Shown here: piece after piece, positions 23,588 through 50,533 of the stretch
Position numbering within the stretch: the first letter of the stretch is position 1
Layout: each line of letters begins with the position of its first letter
IMG/VR virus record: IMGVR_UViG_3300000233_000009
Span: 1 to 64,000 of that record
Source: a virus
DNA length: 64,000 bases
Reading direction: 5' to 3' (one strand)
Notes under the pieces: model-generated
What the model was told of the DNA's origin: nothing
What the model saw: only the letters and a program-made list of their open reading frames with translations
Database searches by the model: none
Program-made: the position numbers and the translations under genes

Positions 23588-23800
23588 ATGACTAACTGGT
23601 TACCATGGAGCGCCTACAAAGGCTTAATTGAAAATAAATTTTCAGGTTATTCTGCCCAAGAGATATACAAATTCATAATCGAGAGCAATTATGAGATCAC
23701 ATCGAAAGACGGTACTACGTACAACGTGTCTTTACAGAAACTAGAGGAGACTCTAGGGGTGCCTTACATCCGTTCGTCAGCCAAAACAATAGAGTGGTAA
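23588..23800 (+). CDS. Small early protein (70 aa)
   Basis: First plus-strand gene. The start MTNWLPW is at 23588, after AAAGG with 7-nt spacing; an ATG at 23555 is upstream of the ribosome site. It contains an amphipathic middle and ends before a strong terminator whose loop includes its stop codon. No family recognised. Being the first early gene, it may be a host-takeover factor (inference). Confidence 0.6.
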   Translation: MTNWLPWSAYKGLIENKFSGYSAQEIYKFIIESNYEITSKDGTTYNVSLQKLEETLGVPYIRSSAKTIEW

Positions 23801-23822
23801 TCCACTCTACTTTTATTTTTTT
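23790..23822 (+). terminator. Rho-independent terminator
   Basis: TAGAGTGG (23790-23797) pairs with CCACTCTA (23802-23809) around the loop TAAT, followed by a T-rich run to 23822. The stop codon of the first early gene lies in the hairpin. It separates that gene from the next. Confidence 0.8.
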
Positions 23823-26762: not shown

Positions 26763-26815
26763 ACTACATGTTCTCATTTTGGGAATATGTAGTCATTTTT
26801 TTCTCTTTTTTATAT
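26763..26815 (+). terminator. Terminator after RNAPII
   Basis: ACTACAT (26763-26769) pairs with ATGTAGT (26787-26793), followed by a T-rich run ending at about 26815. The loop is rather long (17 nt). The following 150 nt to 26973 hold no gene that I can see. Confidence 0.6.
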
Positions 26816-29878: not shown

Positions 29879-31053
29879 ACACAGTCGAACTCAACATTAT
29901 CAAAAATAATATCCTAGCGCAAATACAGGACAAGCAGGTAGCACCAATCTGTATTGCTGGAACTCCTGGAACGGGCAAATCTACTGCAGTATCGATGCTG
30001 GCTAAAGAATTAGGTTTCAATCTAGTTACTGAGTCAGCCCCAACACTTTCAATTTCGGTACTCTCAGGATTACCTAATGATCACGAAGCTCCACAATTTC
30101 AAGCTTACTCATTAGATGGAACTGCAGTACGAGCTACTGTATGGTCTATTCCAGAGATGATTGCTAAAACTATCACAGCATCTCTAACAGCACCAACCAT
30201 ATTGCTGTTAGATGATTTTCATATGGTGTCACAACATTTGCAAAGTTACTTCTATGCTTTATTATTAGAACGAAGATTAGGCAACTACAAGCTCCCAGAT
30301 AATGTGGCTATAGTACTTACAATGAATGACAGTGATACAGCAGGATTTAGAGGAATCAACTCTGCTGTTCGTAATAGATTATCTATTTTAAAAATAGACT
30401 TTAACTTTGATTATTGGTTTAATAGCATTGGGGGTAGATTGCATTACCTAATAGCAAGCTTCCTTAAGGCAAAGCCCTATTATACCCAAGAACCAGAGAC
30501 TATTGGAATCGTGGGGTTCGCAACGGCGAGAGTATGGACTTCACTCTCAAAAGAGCTGATGTATCAGCCTGAGGACACACTACTTCGTGATGCACATAGA
30601 ATAGTCGGCACGCAAGTATCAGATGCTGCAGCAAAAGCATTTCAAGCTCATGTAGCATACATACAAGCTTTAGACTTTAGTAAAGTAGTAGCAACAAAAA
30701 GAGTAATAGACTTATCTAAGCATGATCCTTTGGACAGTATTATATATGCATATATAGTTAACTTTATAGTAACTGTAGAAGAGGGTATGTACTTACTAGA
30801 TCTATTAGCACACAACATTAAAAATCTATCGACTACATTTGTGGGATTTACTTTTGGAGAAATCTATAATAAGTTTACATCAAATACTCCTCTGTCCGAC
30901 GGAATGACTTATGTAATAAACACAGTATTAGATAAACCATTAAATAGCTCAGACTATAAAAACACAACACCTACATCTTTCAAAAAACTTACCAAACATG
31001 TGCCAGAAGATATCCAAGAAATCATTAAAGTAGCAGGAGAATTCCTACTATGA
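29875..31053 (+). CDS. AAA+ ATPase, MoxR-like (N4 gp24-like)
   Basis: Walker A GTPGTGKST (29-37), Walker B ILLLDDFHM (about 108-116), a sensor Asn-Asp region (TMNDSD) and an arginine-rich stretch (FRGINSAVRNRL) fit MoxR-type AAA+ chaperones. MoxR ATPases act with VWA-domain partners to remodel protein or metal complexes. The VWA protein at 32089 is the probable partner. N4 has the same pair (gp24, gp25). Here three small genes separate them. Confidence 0.8.
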   Translation: MNTVELNIIKNNILAQIQDKQVAPICIAGTPGTGKSTAVSMLAKELGFNLVTESAPTLSISVLSGLPNDHEAPQFQAYSLDGTAVRATVWSIPEMIAKTITASLTAPTILLLDDFHMVSQHLQSYFYALLLERRLGNYKLPDNVAIVLTMNDSDTAGFRGINSAVRNRLSILKIDFNFDYWFNSIGGRLHYLIASFLKAKPYYTQEPETIGIVGFATARVWTSLSKELMYQPEDTLLRDAHRIVGTQVSDAAAKAFQAHVAYIQALDFSKVVATKRVIDLSKHDPLDSIIYAYIVNFIVTVEEGMYLLDLLAHNIKNLSTTFVGFTFGEIYNKFTSNTPLSDGMTYVINTVLDKPLNSSDYKNTTPTSFKKLTKHVPEDIQEIIKVAGEFLL

Positions 31054-31457
31054 ACAACTTGGAAACAAGTAAAATGAATAATGATTTTATACGTAAAATC
31101 TATTACTCTAAACTAAATGTAATACATATTCCTGTAAAGTATAAACAAATAAAGTGTGAAGTACTTAATGAAAATAGTAGTAGAAATAGCTACGGAAATG
31201 GAGATGGAAGTGTCTATGGTAACGGAAATGGATACGGAAACGGTAATGGTAATGGTAATAAAGACGGGTGTGGAGATGGGAGTGGAAATGGAAGTGGAAG
31301 CGGATATAGAGATGGGAGTGGAAGTGGAAGTGGAAGCGGATATAGAGATGGAGAGGGAAGTGGAAGTGGAAGCGGATATAGAGATGGAGAGGGAAGTGGA
31401 AGTGGCTATGGCTATGGACAGGGGTATGGGCAGGGAAATGGGCAGGGAAATGGATAA
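31050..31457 (+). CDS. Gly-rich low-complexity repeat protein (135 aa)
   Basis: The start overlaps the ATPase stop (ATGA). A 45-residue ordinary N-terminus (NVIHIPVKYKQIKCEVLNENS) is followed by about 90 residues of Gly with Ser, Asn, Asp, Tyr and Arg in (GSGYRDGE)-like repeats. The DNA is a hexanucleotide microsatellite. The tail may be flexible or prone to phase separation. Other phages carry Gly/Tyr/Asp repeat proteins of unknown use. Confidence 0.55.
   Translation: MNNLETSKMNNDFIRKIYYSKLNVIHIPVKYKQIKCEVLNENSSRNSYGNGDGSVYGNGNGYGNGNGNGNKDGCGDGSGNGSGSGYRDGSGSGSGSGYRDGEGSGSGSGYRDGEGSGSGYGYGQGYGQGNGQGNG
31190..31452 (+). repeat. Hexanucleotide-type repeat tract
   Basis: Runs of GGAAAT, GGAAGT, GGAGAT and GGATAT units, with a 45-48-nt higher-order unit (GGAAGTGGAAGCGGATATAG with the following GATGG) repeated three times between about 31285 and 31400. 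A GGAAATGGAAATGGAAGTG remnant also occurs at about 29390. Copy number is likely to vary among isolates. Confidence 0.85.
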
Positions 31458-44700: not shown

Positions 44701-44783
44701 ACTACATAAATTCCCACTACTCAACCTTAATTAGGTATAATGCAATTCTTATGTTACAACAAACCTTAAAGGAACCCCTATGA
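44697..44783 (+). CDS. Mini-ORF bridging to the intein-containing gene (28 aa)
   Basis: The ATG at 44697 overlaps the previous stop and its stop overlaps the next ATG (44780), so it bridges both genes exactly. It carries the ribosome site of the next gene (AAAGGAACCCCT). It may serve translational coupling more than make a product. Confidence 0.35.
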   Translation: MNYINSHYSTLIRYNAILMLQQTLKEPL

Positions 44784-47700
44784 AAATAGAAGATCAAATC
44801 CTCAATTCTTTGGACAGCCTCATAGCACAATATAAAGAGGAACTAACATTCTTACAAAATCGCAGTATGGACACATTTGATATGACTACGCTACCGCAGA
44901 TCATCCAAGATATTGCCAAACTAGCAATAGCTAAAACACCTTCATTTAGCAACATATCAGCTGTAGCAGTGGCTAACTTCGTGCTTAGTCATACATTCGG
45001 TCAACTACGCCCTCACATCAACGACCCTATATACTCTGATGATCAAGTAGGCGTTAATACATACAGCACCATTATTAGTCGAAGCGGGTGTGTGGATGCA
45101 GATACCGAATTCTGCACGCCCACGGGATGGAAACGTATTGCGGACTTCTCTGCAAGTGATACAGTATTGTCTTGGGGTCCAGCTGGATATAGCGAGTTCG
45201 TCACTCCTACCCATTACATCAAACAGCCTGCTAGCATGTTGACCAAGTATTCTAGTAGAGACTTTGATATGGTACTCTCTGATGACCATAACATGGCTCT
45301 ACTGGACACAACAGGCAAGCCTGTTAAGATGCTTGCAGGAGATTTTAAAAAACTGCCTGACAGAACTCATACCATCCCATTCAAATTTTACAGTCCTACG
45401 AATACAACTGGACTAGATATGACCGACGATGAATTAAGAGTATTTATTGTGTATACTATTGATAACTTAGCAGTAAAAGAAAATAATGCGAGAATCAAAA
45501 TACGAGTAAAAGAACCTTATAAGAAAGAACGTTTACGTCAACTTAGTATTAACCTAACAGGTTCTATTGTTGAGTATACAGTTCCGTCGAACCCTGATTA
45601 TAGTATCTTCTACCTACCTCCAATTAAAGGGCTCGATACTAACTCTATTGGCCTGTTATGGAATTTGACCCCTGCACAAACCATAATTGCTGCAGATGAG
45701 TTATGGAGATGGGGTGGAGCTTTAGATAAAAGAGGGTCTAAAACATTCAGAACCACTAAGAAGGCAGAAGCGGACCTAGTACAATTTATTTGGCAATCTG
45801 CGTATGACACTGCTGTAACCATGAACATTAAAGACGGTCCTGATAATAGACCGCCTCACACAAAATATAAAGTGACCGTAACTAAACACAAGTATTTGGA
45901 CTTTAGAGTAAAGACAGATTCTCTACTAACAGAGTGCCCGACAGTAGATGGGTATCAATACTGCTTCACTATGCCTAACTCTAATTGGGTGGCTAGACGT
46001 GAGGGTAAGATATTTCTTACTCACAATAGTGGTAAAGACTCAACCTATCAAGCTATCACCAAGACAACTCTACCAGCATTGGACTATATTAACAACCTAG
46101 CTGCAATAGAAGCAGAAGAAGTAGCGCGTGCTAAATATATCAAAGAAGCAGCTAAAACCATAAAGGGCTTTGACGAATCCTCGGTATGTAAAGATGATTA
46201 TGAGGAACACATTAAGAAACCAGAAATTCTAATAACCAGTCTAGGCTCCTCACGGGGAGGGCTAACCACAAGTCTTAATAGAATGGCACACACAAACTTC
46301 CATACTAAATCGCTTTTTGCATCAGAGCTAGGTCTAGCAATCCAATCAAATGCAGGAATCATACCTGTACTTGAACTCTTCTCAACTTTGTATGATATGG
46401 GGCAATCTGTTGCACCTGAGTTCAAAACAGAAGACGCTAAAGAAGAATCTGTTGAGGGGATGTATCCAAATCTCTTAGGTATATCCAGCCCAACTCCATT
46501 CTATCAAGAAGGAAACGTTCGTAAACTATTTATACCTATGCTTACGACCTCATTAGCACGTCGTATGACTATCGTATTTTCAACAGCTAAAGAAGAATTT
46601 GAAAATATGTATATACCACAATCCCCCGCAGAGAAACGACAATTACAAGCGGAACAACGTGTGCTACTGTCAACTTACACAGACTCCATAAGCAAACAGC
46701 TATTAACCGCTGTGAAGTCATTGAGTCACAATAGTACTATAATGTTCGATGAGGAGTCTTCAGTAATCTATGACGACTACAAAGCGTATACACAAGAACT
46801 CAGCAAATCTTTATTATTGTGTGATAAAGAATCTGTGGAGGGAATAGAGATGTCTGGTCGTGCGTTCAAGATGGGGCGTATTGCTGCAACTTGGGCTATT
46901 GCATCCAACTCCAATGTCATCAGTGCAGATGTGCTAAAAGCAGCTATTTACTTCTGCGACTACACAGCTCAACATTTGATCAAATTTGTGGCTACACTTA
47001 ATTTAAAAGACTATGAGCTATTTATCGCTGATTGGGAGCAAGAATTCTTTGGTAACATATTGCCTATTGACAAAGCGATTACTAAAGGATACATCAACGT
47101 GAAGGCAATCACTCAACAATCCTTAAACAACTTCCTCAAACCAGTCAACAGTAAGCTTGAGGGAGTAGCAACAGTAAGCTATGACGAAGTGACTAATGCA
47201 TTTGTATTCGTTCCTGTAGTACGTAACTTGGACAACACTTATTCATACCGTGCTTGTCAGGGGCATACCACTACAGCTCAGATCACAAACATTGTCACTG
47301 GCAAGACCATCGATGCTCTTGGGTCTTTACTGACTGTTGATTCATCATTTAACCCTTTTGTAGAAGACACTGCAAAGTTTATTGTTCTGCGGGTATCCAA
47401 TGCATTCTTAACAGCGCAAATGGTAAGTAAATACATAGCAAATATATGCCACTTTATAGCCCCTACAAGCGACGATCATAGCTTTACCATACTAATCCCT
47501 ACCAACATGGTAATCGAGCGTTCACAGTACAAGTATATAGTACTATCAATAGCTCACCAATTGATGCTAAAAATAGCACCAGAACTATGTGAATCCACTA
47601 CGGTTCACCATGGATACGCTGGTATACCATTACTAGCATCCACAGCTGAAGCGCCATTACTCTATGACATAAGTGGTATTATTGGTAGTTTCGCAGCAGG

Positions 47701-47995
47701 GACTCCTGCGCCGTTACTTGCAGTCAAACCTAATGTCAAACCGACTTCAGCAGTAGTAGCTAAGTACCTGCAAACTGACATTATCGACAACCAAGCAATT
47801 ATTGTGGATATGCTAAATGTTTCTAATAATCCTACACTACTCCTAGCAAACATCGTGTATGATATGCGGATTCACGGAGTAGACCAACATCGCTGTGTAT
47901 CTGTCATCAACAGTATCAACAGCGCATTGGATACATCTATGCCTGAATCAACTATACATGGATACTTTATTGAGCCCTTCATAGGACTGATATAG
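44780..47995 (+). CDS. P-loop ATPase/primase-helicase-like protein with an intein
   Basis: 1071 aa before splicing. The intein takes residues 104-416. Removing it joins SRSG to SGKDST, forming a Walker A-like GSGKDST motif. The mature 758-aa protein then has SLGSSRGGL, a Walker B-like SLFASELG and a long helical part resembling DUF3987-type helicase proteins. It lies in the N4 replication block, next to polymerase and primase, so I read it as the replicative helicase or an equivalent ATPase. ATP use depends on splicing. Confidence 0.75.
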   Translation: MKIEDQILNSLDSLIAQYKEELTFLQNRSMDTFDMTTLPQIIQDIAKLAIAKTPSFSNISAVAVANFVLSHTFGQLRPHINDPIYSDDQVGVNTYSTIISRSGCVDADTEFCTPTGWKRIADFSASDTVLSWGPAGYSEFVTPTHYIKQPASMLTKYSSRDFDMVLSDDHNMALLDTTGKPVKMLAGDFKKLPDRTHTIPFKFYSPTNTTGLDMTDDELRVFIVYTIDNLAVKENNARIKIRVKEPYKKERLRQLSINLTGSIVEYTVPSNPDYSIFYLPPIKGLDTNSIGLLWNLTPAQTIIAADELWRWGGALDKRGSKTFRTTKKAEADLVQFIWQSAYDTAVTMNIKDGPDNRPPHTKYKVTVTKHKYLDFRVKTDSLLTECPTVDGYQYCFTMPNSNWVARREGKIFLTHNSGKDSTYQAITKTTLPALDYINNLAAIEAEEVARAKYIKEAAKTIKGFDESSVCKDDYEEHIKKPEILITSLGSSRGGLTTSLNRMAHTNFHTKSLFASELGLAIQSNAGIIPVLELFSTLYDMGQSVAPEFKTEDAKEESVEGMYPNLLGISSPTPFYQEGNVRKLFIPMLTTSLARRMTIVFSTAKEEFENMYIPQSPAEKRQLQAEQRVLLSTYTDSISKQLLTAVKSLSHNSTIMFDEESSVIYDDYKAYTQELSKSLLLCDKESVEGIEMSGRAFKMGRIAATWAIASNSNVISADVLKAAIYFCDYTAQHLIKFVATLNLKDYELFIADWEQEFFGNILPIDKAITKGYINVKAITQQSLNNFLKPVNSKLEGVATVSYDEVTNAFVFVPVVRNLDNTYSYRACQGHTTTAQITNIVTGKTIDALGSLLTVDSSFNPFVEDTAKFIVLRVSNAFLTAQMVSKYIANICHFIAPTSDDHSFTILIPTNMVIERSQYKYIVLSIAHQLMLKIAPELCESTTVHHGYAGIPLLASTAEAPLLYDISGIIGSFAAGTPAPLLAVKPNVKPTSAVVAKYLQTDIIDNQAIIVDMLNVSNNPTLLLANIVYDMRIHGVDQHRCVSVINSINSALDTSMPESTIHGYFIEPFIGLI
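45089..46027 (+). mobile_element. Intein inserted in the Walker A motif, degenerate LAGLIDADG endonuclease
   Basis: Block A: CVDADTEFCTPTGWKRIADF begins at Cys104. Block B-like: DHNMALL. C-terminal: YCFTMPNSNWVARREGKIFLTHN ending in Asn416, followed by Ser417 (+1 nucleophile). The 313-aa element includes a LAGLIDADG-like part (LDMTDDELRVFIVYTIDN and the ELWRWGGALDKRG...KKAEADLVQ repeat). The second acidic residue, expected as W-D-G, is Gly here, so nuclease activity is likely reduced or lost. Splicing residues look intact. Inteins favour such conserved ATP-binding loops. Confidence 0.9.
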
Positions 47996-48091
47996 TATAT
48001 GTAATGTGCATTATGCATAAATTATAGGAGAAGCACACTCAAAAACTTGACAACGTTTTTTAAATTTAATGCAATTTCTTTACAATTATCC

Positions 48092-48120
48092 TTGACTTTT
48101 ATGGGAATTTTGGGTATACT
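48092..48120 (+). promoter_or_regulatory. Strong sigma70-type promoter
   Basis: TTGACT (48092-48097), 17-nt spacer, TATACT (48115-48120). This is a near-consensus host promoter placed before the ATPase/primase/SSB cluster. Start of transcription would be near 48127, inside a long palindrome. It would let host polymerase read this replication block without the phage polymerases. Confidence 0.8.
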
Positions 48121-48152
48121 ATTGATAATAGTAGCTACTATTATCAATAGTA
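48117..48152 (+). promoter_or_regulatory. 36-bp perfect palindrome (putative operator)
   Basis: An uninterrupted 18+18 palindrome spans the end of the -10 box and the predicted start site. Its centre is 48134/48135 (TAGTAG|CTACTA). Such a site over a promoter suggests a dimeric repressor or activator, or a self-pairing transcript start. No repressor gene is recognised in this window. Confidence 0.75.
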
Positions 48153-48161
48153 CCAAGTTAA

Positions 48162-48250
48162 CTTAAACAAGTGGATTTTTGTCCAGATTCATCCACTTGC
48201 TTAAGGGAACTCCTACGAGTTTGAACGAATCTGGACAATTCTTTTTCCTC
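48162..48250 (+). promoter_or_regulatory. Leader with competing hairpins (attenuator or pseudoknot candidate)
   Basis: Stem 1: 48162-48176 pairs with 48191-48205 (15 positions, one mismatch). Its 14-nt loop contains TTGTCCAGATTC (48179-48190), which pairs fully with GAATCTGGACAA (48227-48238) as stem 2, followed by TTCTTTTTCC. Stem 2 looks like a terminator, and stem 1 would block it, or the two form a partial pseudoknot. It lies between the promoter at 48092 and the ATPase start at 48320. Confidence 0.7.
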
Positions 48251-48319
48251 TTAAAGCACACACCGTCTGAAAGTAATTTCATGTTAAAACACACAATTAT
48301 CGAATATAAGGAGGTCATC

Positions 48320-48871
48320 ATGTTAGCACACGTATTTCGTAAGGATGGAGTAAACGTGGTCTACGGTCAATCAGGTATTGGCAAGACTATTAGTACCATT
48401 AAAGCACTTAACAGCGAAGGATTTACACCAATCCTGCTAGACTTTGATGATAATAACAGCCCTGAACAAAATCAATGTGAGTTTACGCACATTAATGGGT
48501 GGAGCTTTATGAAGTCCTACAATGACCCTGCTACAGCTGTAATGATGCCAACAAATACAATCATCGTTATTGATACCTGGCATATGTTCAACCAGTTTTA
48601 CTCTACCAATCCCACAATCCTACAGGACTTAGCTGAAGGGAATACCATAATTATTATTGGGCATGTACTAGATCTTGCCACTAGACAGGATATTCCTGAC
48701 ATCCCAACCGAATTTGTAAATCACTGCGATGCAAAGCTATTTTTGTCTTATGACAATGGAAGTAGTGTTAAAGGCAGAGAACGTCCTGCTGGGACTGTAC
48801 TGGAAGTCAAAAAGCTACGGGGATACTCTGGACCTAAACATATTACTAACTGGGCAAGAGAACCAAAATGA
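48320..48871 (+). CDS. P-loop ATPase (183 aa)
   Basis: The ATG at 48320 follows AAGGAGG; an ATG at 48179 lies in the structured leader and is rejected. Walker A GQSGIGKT (16-23) and Walker B-like IIVIDTWHMF fit small RecA-like ATPases. First gene after the promoter/leader. Possibly a helicase loader or recombination ATPase. It overlaps the primase region by 4 nt. Confidence 0.65.
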   Translation: MLAHVFRKDGVNVVYGQSGIGKTISTIKALNSEGFTPILLDFDDNNSPEQNQCEFTHINGWSFMKSYNDPATAVMMPTNTIIVIDTWHMFNQFYSTNPTILQDLAEGNTIIIIGHVLDLATRQDIPDIPTEFVNHCDAKLFLSYDNGSSVKGRERPAGTVLEVKKLRGYSGPKHITNWAREPK

Positions 48872-48906
48872 GCCCCCCCCCTAATTTAACTTCAGGAGCT
48901 ATTAAA

Positions 48907-49689
48907 ATGCAAGTAACATTATCCACTCGTGCTATGCATAATCTTAGCAAAGCCGAACGAAGGAATATAAAATACTACACACGTTTCTTACAGTGTAGCT
49001 TTAAGTCTCTAACGAGTCTACTTATTAAAGACTATATGTATTCACCATTTAATTATATCGGATACACACAAAACACAAGTAATATATGTAGTGAAGCAAA
49101 CTTTGTCGTGATTGATGTAGACCATACTAACATCCCGATCAACTTACGCATTGAGCAATTAAAAGCTGAAGGACTACAATGCATTCTAGGAACTACAAGC
49201 AACGCAACAGATTGGTACAAGTATCGTGTATTGATTCCACTTGATCGACCTGTATCGCCTACTGAGTATCGTTACTTAGTACATGGCATACGTGTAAATG
49301 GGCTTATCCCAGACATGGATACAGCATCAGCTAAACCTGCACAAAAGTTCTATTCCTATGCTAACTCGACTGTACTACATTCCTTCACTGGATCACCACT
49401 GATTGTAGATGACTACATACTAGAACCAACACAGATAGAGTGTAAAGCCATAACTACGTCAGATGACATCACTTATCTACTCCCTGAATTCAATAGGTAT
49501 CAATATGCAGTTAAAGGGAAACGCACTCGTAGTTTAATATCAGCGGGCTATCGTTGCTTACAACTAGGTATGACAGACACACAGGTGGAGCAAGTTATAA
49601 CTTATGTCAATAATTTGTTCTTAATCCCTAAGCCACACAATGAACTTAAACGTCGTGTGTTGACTTTTTTAAAAACACAAAGGAACTAA
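48907..49689 (+). CDS. AEP-type primase (PrimPol-like)
   Basis: Metal motif VVIDVDH (Asp70-x-Asp72), then TTSNATDWYKYRVLIPLDRPVSPTEYR, typical of archaeo-eukaryotic primase domains in phage replication proteins, and a KPAQKFYSYANS strand. The ATG at 48907 is favoured because AGGAG lies 8 nt upstream; the ATG at 48868 overlaps the ATPase stop but lacks a ribosome site, and a C9 run lies between. It makes primers for the family A polymerase. Confidence 0.75.
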   Translation: MQVTLSTRAMHNLSKAERRNIKYYTRFLQCSFKSLTSLLIKDYMYSPFNYIGYTQNTSNICSEANFVVIDVDHTNIPINLRIEQLKAEGLQCILGTTSNATDWYKYRVLIPLDRPVSPTEYRYLVHGIRVNGLIPDMDTASAKPAQKFYSYANSTVLHSFTGSPLIVDDYILEPTQIECKAITTSDDITYLLPEFNRYQYAVKGKRTRSLISAGYRCLQLGMTDTQVEQVITYVNNLFLIPKPHNELKRRVLTFLKTQRN

Positions 49690-49690
49690 C

Positions 49691-50533
49691 ATGAACTTAG
49701 AAGATTTACCGTTAGCTGAAAAAGCTAGACTAACTAGCCAATTCCCAGTACTACTTGTAGGCGCTAATTCTGCAGGAAAGAGCTACGCATTAGAGAACAT
49801 GAGCGCAGAAGATAAGAAGCGTACCATAGTACTTAACTTCGACACAAAACCAGTAGGACTATCACCAAATGACTTCGCTGCAGTATTTGCAGTATCATCC
49901 AGTATGAGCAAAATCAAAGAACAGATGTCGTTGTTGCCTAAAGAAGCAACAGAGTATCGTGCGCACTTTGAACGTATCCTAGCAACATCATACTTCATAG
50001 ACGACCCTGATGCTATTGACAAGATCGTAGAGCATATACTCAAAGCCACATTCAGTCCTAAAATTGATCGTGTTGTTTTAGACACTTTTACGTCTATGAT
50101 CGACTTCTGTGAAGCATGGGCAAACTCTAACTTTTCAGGCAGAGACATATGGAGCAAATATGGATTTGGGGTACAGAAGATTCAACAAGCTCTGAAGGAA
50201 GCAACTATATTTGGATTCAAATTCACTTATGTATTTGCTCATCATGACTATATTCCTCCGCATTTGTACGCAACCGCACCTAAGCAAGCCTTAGCTGTTA
50301 AAGGAGGCATCATGAAGAATAACGTGGAGACTGCGTATAACACCATCATCTTTAGCTACCTTGCTGATGAGGGTAAGCGTATGTTCCAATGCGATTCTAA
50401 TAATACTATGGACACCAGCCGTACTAAGTTGCTTGAGTCTTCGTTCAAATTTGAACGGACATCTCTTGATGACATTGAGCAACTCCTCAATCGTCGTAAA
50501 AAAATCGTGGACGAACAGTTAGTGGAGCTGTAG
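49691..50533 (+). CDS. RecA-like ATPase (AAA_24/Sak4-like)
   Basis: Walker A GANSAGKS (24-31) and Walker B-like RVVLDTFTSM in a 280-aa chain fit Sak4/AAA_24 single-strand annealing ATPases, which phages often encode near SSB. SSB is two genes downstream here. It may aid recombination-linked replication. Starts 1 nt after the primase stop. Confidence 0.65.
   Translation: MNLEDLPLAEKARLTSQFPVLLVGANSAGKSYALENMSAEDKKRTIVLNFDTKPVGLSPNDFAAVFAVSSSMSKIKEQMSLLPKEATEYRAHFERILATSYFIDDPDAIDKIVEHILKATFSPKIDRVVLDTFTSMIDFCEAWANSNFSGRDIWSKYGFGVQKIQQALKEATIFGFKFTYVFAHHDYIPPHLYATAPKQALAVKGGIMKNNVETAYNTIIFSYLADEGKRMFQCDSNNTMDTSRTKLLESSFKFERTSLDDIEQLLNRRKKIVDEQLVEL

Follow-up and report, generated by a model that had tools for sequence, protein, structure and literature searches.

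An interleaved pair of stems with a terminator-like end in front of a Sak4-like ATPase gene of a tailed phage

The question raised by this locus is what a structured leader controls, and by what means, when it lies between a large primase-related gene and atp1, a gene for a Sak4-like/AAA_24-like ATPase, and in particular whether its stems form two competing folds, as the preliminary description had proposed. The window, that is, the whole stretch of DNA analyzed here, comprises 64,000 of the 68,086 bases of a virus record; since an SU10-type portal protein is encoded in it, the virus is a tailed phage. The two genes are separated by a gap of 324 nt, in which a promoter, a palindrome, the stems S1 and S2, a U-tract, a weakly structured stretch of about 60 further bases and the AAGGAGG sequence follow one another up to the atp1 start. 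The features of the locus are as follows.

44780-47995: large primase-related gene, upstream border of the gap
48092-48120, + strand: sigma-70-like promoter TTGACT-17-TATACT, predicted start near 48127
48117-48152, no strand assigned: 36-bp perfect palindrome of two ACTATT-N3-AATAGT sites, which overlaps both the -10 box and the predicted start
48156-48176, + strand: 5' arm of S1 (1A)
48179-48190, + strand: 5' arm of S2 (2A), occupying 12 of the 14 nt of the S1 loop
48191-48211, + strand: 3' arm of S1 (1B), abutting 2A with 0 nt between
48208-48221, + strand: small hairpin H3, AACUC-CUAC-GAGUU, within the S2 loop
48227-48238, + strand: 3' arm of S2 (2B)
48239-48246, + strand: U-tract UUCUUUUU, directly after S2
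48239-48319, + strand: weakly structured leader of about 80 bases with UUAAA-type repeats
48308-48314, + strand: Shine-Dalgarno sequence AAGGAGG (sequence reading)
48320-48871, + strand: atp1, 183-aa Sak4-like/AAA_24-like ATPase gene led by the structure
48907-49689, + strand: primase-like gene (phrog_2135, E 3.2e-14 for the longer frame)

The assignment of Atp1 is based on a weak match to phrog_124 (Sak4-like, E 1.5e-5) and a match to AAA_24 (E 5.8e-5) that is below Pfam's cut-off, and no Atp1 homologues were found in viral contigs, phages, plasmids, genome contigs or eight related virus records. A longer atp1 frame that would begin at a TTG (48179) and run through the leader was rejected, as the AAGGAGG sequence belongs to the ATG at 48320; an in-frame ATG at 48281 may be an alternative start. 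The start of the primase-like gene was placed at 48907 rather than at 48868, because relatives show the ATGCAAGTAAC start. Nine consecutive C, which is unusual for a genome this rich in AT, are found at the atp1/primase junction (48873-48881). Elsewhere in the window, a low-complexity frame rich in Gly, Asn, Ser and Tyr (31050-31457) has long open frames on both strands.

Both stems are formed exclusively by Watson-Crick pairs, with no G-U pair. In S1 (48156-48176/48191-48211) 18 of 21 positions are paired, including 14 of the 15 in its core (48162-48176/48191-48205), and S2 (48179-48190/48227-48238) is perfect, with 12 of 12; the loops are 14 nt and 36 nt, respectively. The arms follow each other in the order 1A-2A-1B-2B, and no base is common to any two of them. 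Positions 48190 and 48191 are adjacent, in agreement with the 0-1 nt between 2A and 1B that characterize the arm order of an H-type pseudoknot, and the topology of S1 and S2 is that of an H-type pseudoknot.

The tract at 48239-48246 reads TTCTTTTT, with seven U in the first eight positions, so that S2 presents the stable stem and immediate U-rich tract of an intrinsic terminator. However, loops of intrinsic terminators are short (roughly 3-10 nt), and the 36-nt loop of S2 departs from this rule, though folding adds some pairs inside it. The loops of other likely intergenic terminators of the same phage are 3-12 nt; in particular, ordinary terminator-like hairpins at 23790-23809 and 26764-26792 have loops of 4 and 3 nt.

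The structure exceeds chance expectation. When the 324-nt gap was dinucleotide-shuffled 3000 times, no shuffle gave interleaved stems summing to at least 21 bp, 4 contained any 12-bp stem, and 34 contained interleaved stems of 8 bp or more. On the + strand of the window, S2 is the only stem of at least 11 bp directly followed by seven T in eight positions, and 200 shuffled windows yielded one such match. S1 and S2 are also the sole interleaved pair of stems of at least 9 bp in the window, but this 9+9-bp criterion alone is not striking, as 20 approximate window shuffles gave five pairs. The presence of a 15-position and a 12-bp stem interleaved at 48162-48238 and followed by a U-tract, as originally described, is thus confirmed and unmatched by shuffles. 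The folding energy of 48127-48330 is modestly low (z-score -1.70, with 10 of 200 shuffles as good).

Folding of growing transcripts shows that S1 is present in the minimum-energy fold of transcripts that end no later than 48232, and S2 in that of transcripts reaching 48236 or beyond. With pseudoknots disallowed, the central S2 pair has an equilibrium probability of 0.995, and the central S1 pair of 0.005. The folding program, ViennaRNA without a pseudoknot routine, cannot form S1 and S2 together, and the knot was therefore assigned energies by adding up its helices under assumed penalties. The helix energies are -25.8 for S1 and -22.2 for S2; jointly, with the assumed penalty of 9.6 to 16 and varied fraying, they give -18 to -38 kcal/mol, versus -24.4 kcal/mol for the best nested fold, and at the higher penalty the knot with frayed S2 is barely better or worse than the nested fold.

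The geometry was considered in a rigid A-form helix model. In this model, the 2-nt connection between 1A and 2A (loop L1), which has to cross the deep groove of S2, spans 10 bp of S2, but not 11 or 12, and the S2 pairs that need to open with S1 intact are the last two, both A-U, beside the U-tract. Since 10 of the 12 S2 pairs can be spanned with S1 intact, S1 and most of S2 can coexist in the model, and the only built-in conflict between them would be at the base of the terminator-like stem, which is the ground of the gating idea considered below. Two claims of the preliminary description are not supported at this point. The folds were said to compete, while the arms have no common nucleotide and the model allows S1 together with up to 10 of 12 S2 base pairs. 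Moreover, the layout was taken for the design of attenuators and riboswitches, in which alternative helices share a strand, whereas here none is shared. The description is borne out for a structured leader that ends like a terminator and precedes the ATPase/primase pair; as an attenuator-type switch it fits only loosely, in its location and its end but not in shared-strand competition.

The promoter scores 10 of 12, the joint best promoter-like score within 46000-50500, and it is the only zero-mismatch match to TTGAC-N18-TATANT in the window. With one mismatch, the same pattern has nine matches in the window, compared with 10.9 on average in shuffles, and it is therefore the exact match alone that is notable. 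The 36-bp palindrome is likely an operator; no further exact ACTATT-N3-AATAGT was found elsewhere in the window, and a scan with the double-operator pattern gave one match, in an unrelated record (L023).

Downstream of S2, the mean unpaired probability of 48239-48319 is 0.61, compared with 0.51 in shuffles, only 4 in 300 of which were as high. UUAAA-type units are situated near 48248, 48281 and, across the start codon, 48320; a 13-mer with at most three mismatches occurs in three copies, which was matched in 2 of 500 shuffles. The resemblance of this weak structure and repeat, taken together with the pseudoknot, to the layout of T4 gene 32 is a post hoc observation. A 17-codon GUG frame at 48171-48224 is not preceded by a Shine-Dalgarno sequence (sequence reading), and leader-peptide attenuation was rejected, the candidate frame having no such site.

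Searches of the window at the Rfam gathering threshold gave no matches, consistent with the initial statement that no known riboswitch is recognizable, and no aptamer could be demonstrated. Relaxation of the E-value to 10 over 47990-48400 gave 10 matches, all far below gathering scores, the best of them (E 0.07) on the opposite strand. DNA similarity to phage records is limited to short, weak pieces in eight records. The leader pattern was found in no stretch of the viral contigs, and a looser pattern in three stretches of viral contigs and 10 of genome contigs; none of these 13 has a partner for S2, as the longest complement between the loop and the downstream region is 7 nt. Within the window, 2A has no match with at most one mismatch besides its own partner.

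Searches using the genes for the DNA polymerase, the primase-related protein and the second ATPase yielded 11 distinct related records (L003-L010, L012, L013 and L019; L014-L018 and L020-L022 repeat some of these contigs and were left out of the count). The junction of the primase-related and primase genes is nearly empty in five of them (L003, L009, L012, L019 and L010, the last judged by match spacing only) and is filled by other genes in the remaining six (L004-L008 and L013), and neither the leader nor atp1 is found at it in any of the 11. A search of eight of the 11 records over their whole length gave no match to Atp1. L012 and L013 share 99.0% identity across 2545 bases as far as the end of the primase-related gene and are 91.7% alike again from the primase start, but the intervening stretch differs, with 22 bases in L012 versus 666 in L013. 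Some junction cargoes carry promoter-like or operator-like repeats of their own: in L013 there is an inverted repeat beside a TATAAT box, and in L006 (18400-19362) genes for an Arc-like repressor and an O-like replication initiator, preceded by repeated AAGTGTA...TACACTT palindromes, occupy the same spot.

Since the junction is variable and both leader and atp1 are absent from it in the 11 relatives, the two look like one self-promoted cargo cassette. The leader, though located upstream of the ATPase/primase genes as first reported, seems to go with the adjoining cargo gene rather than with the replication genes as a block, as related phages lack both leader and atp1. As no relative with the leader was found in the collections scanned, which may leave out near relatives of the window, there is no covariation and no conservation signal.

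Other insertions were observed in the same group of phages. The primase-related gene of the window has an insert at residues ~105-416 (approximately 45092-46027), missing in relatives such as L004, L005 and L008; it is probably an intein. The PhoH-like phrog_32482 matches residues 101-426 of this gene. Inside the primase-related gene of L003 (2660-3460) there is a 266-aa frame, which we take to resemble a homing endonuclease. Inserts of ~1.1 kb split the DNA polymerase gene in two different places (L005 10523-11708, L009 12113-13175, L010 1853-2915), and these are probably inteins or introns.

The leader probably controls atp1 output. We tentatively favor, at somewhat less than an even chance, a conditional terminator in the leader of a self-promoted cargo cassette, with the pseudoknot setting the closure of the terminator stem; while the elements, their excess over shuffles, the arm order and the computed sequence of pairing are results, promoter use, termination and any regulator are what we infer here. 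Transcription would begin near 48127, controlled by a repressor bound to the palindrome, S1 would fold first, displaying 2A in its 14-nt loop, and the emerging 2B would pair with this loop to form an H-type pseudoknot in which S2 has at most 10 pairs. S2 and the U-tract would act as an intrinsic terminator, whose last two pairs beside the U-tract would close only if S1 yields slightly, and whether S1 stays closed, through kinetics or a bound protein, or opens would set the shares of transcripts that stop near 48245 and that read through to atp1. This is consistent with the excess of interleaved arms over chance, the U-tract with zero gap after a 12-bp stem, the promoter and palindrome placed so that the transcript starts just before the structure, the early S1 and late S2, the joint-helix energies relative to the nested fold, the geometry permitting most of S2 with S1 intact, and the cargo nature of the site. 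On the other hand, the S2 loop is long for an intrinsic terminator, the leader occurs in no relative, its helices share no bases so that a switch is not forced, loss of two A-U pairs may matter little, the frayed knot gains little or loses at higher penalty, the z-score is modest, and no ligand, protein or leader peptide has been identified. In the specific form suggested by the rigid model, where intact S1 blocks the last two S2 pairs, and binding or opening of S1 tunes expression of the recombination ATPase, the idea is quite improbable. If true, it would represent a leader design whose alternative helices share no bases. Termination could then be adjusted with no antiterminator strand in common, in a cargo cassette of a phage that would have to bring regulation of its own to a new site. 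At present, the leader is a well-defined singleton.

The same elements could instead belong to a gene for a small non-coding RNA of ~120 nt with S2 and the U-tract as its ordinary terminator, atp1 being expressed via upstream read-through. This is unlikely, though it ranks next: promoter, body and terminator-like end are all there, and a strong Shine-Dalgarno site belonging to atp1 itself lies well downstream, but no second promoter-like site of the + strand is listed between 48250 and 48320, and 2A has no apparent target in the window. Distinctly unlikely is an explanation at the DNA level, with the palindrome and inverted repeats binding a protein or serving as a replication origin and the RNA fold being incidental. 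The repressor, initiator and repeated palindromes at the same spot of L006 would fit it, as would the lack of G-U pairs that could point to RNA; the U-tract, however, marks one strand and one side, there is no sharp change of skew at the leader in 2-kb steps, and inverted-repeat arms as long as 12-21 nt, separated by 14 and 36 nt, do not resemble ordinary dimer operator sites.

Below these we rank a translational operator of the T4 gene 32 type, where a single-strand-binding protein would nucleate on the pseudoknot, coat the weakly structured stretch as far as the ribosome site and silence atp1. It is improbable, and is kept as a rival because the pseudoknot and the weakly paired stretch resemble the T4 layout: between the pseudoknot topology and the start codon lie 80 nt of weak structure with UUAAA-type repeats, as in the layout given for gene 32 (PMC535899), and the downstream gene resembles those of ssDNA-annealing proteins. 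Yet the T4 pseudoknot is about 28 nt in that account (PMC535899) versus about 80 here, atp1 is not recognizably an SSB gene, and the U-tract is left unexplained. The lowest probability is assigned to the absence of any regulatory function, the leader being an unconstrained intergenic stretch or only an mRNA-stabilizing 5' structure; its singleton status, with no relative in pattern scans of the viral and genome collections, agrees with this, but the excess over shuffles and the orderly promoter-leader-gene layout do not.

Among known systems, the leader resembles intrinsic terminators and conditional-terminator leaders in having a 12-bp stem followed by UUCUUUUU between a promoter and a gene, and differs from them in the 36-nt loop, in the 5' arm of S2, which sits in the loop of an earlier hairpin, and in having no strand in common with an antiterminator. 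It has neither the exclusive strand-sharing helices nor the translated leader peptide with a ribosome site of the classical transcription attenuator. The SAM-II riboswitch is a pseudoknot aptamer that in some leaders is accompanied by a terminator and a short RNA (PMC9373788), and is thus similar in being a pseudoknot leader compatible with a short terminated RNA, whereas the leader described here has no Rfam match, another size and sequence, and no known ligand. The T4 gene 32 operator (PMC535899) shares with it an H-type pseudoknot topology, after which a stretch that contains UUAAA and has little structure extends to the ribosome site. The leader described here differs from this operator in its much longer helices and its U-tract, and, in place of a self-repressing SSB gene, it precedes a Sak4-like one (by the weak phrog_124 match).
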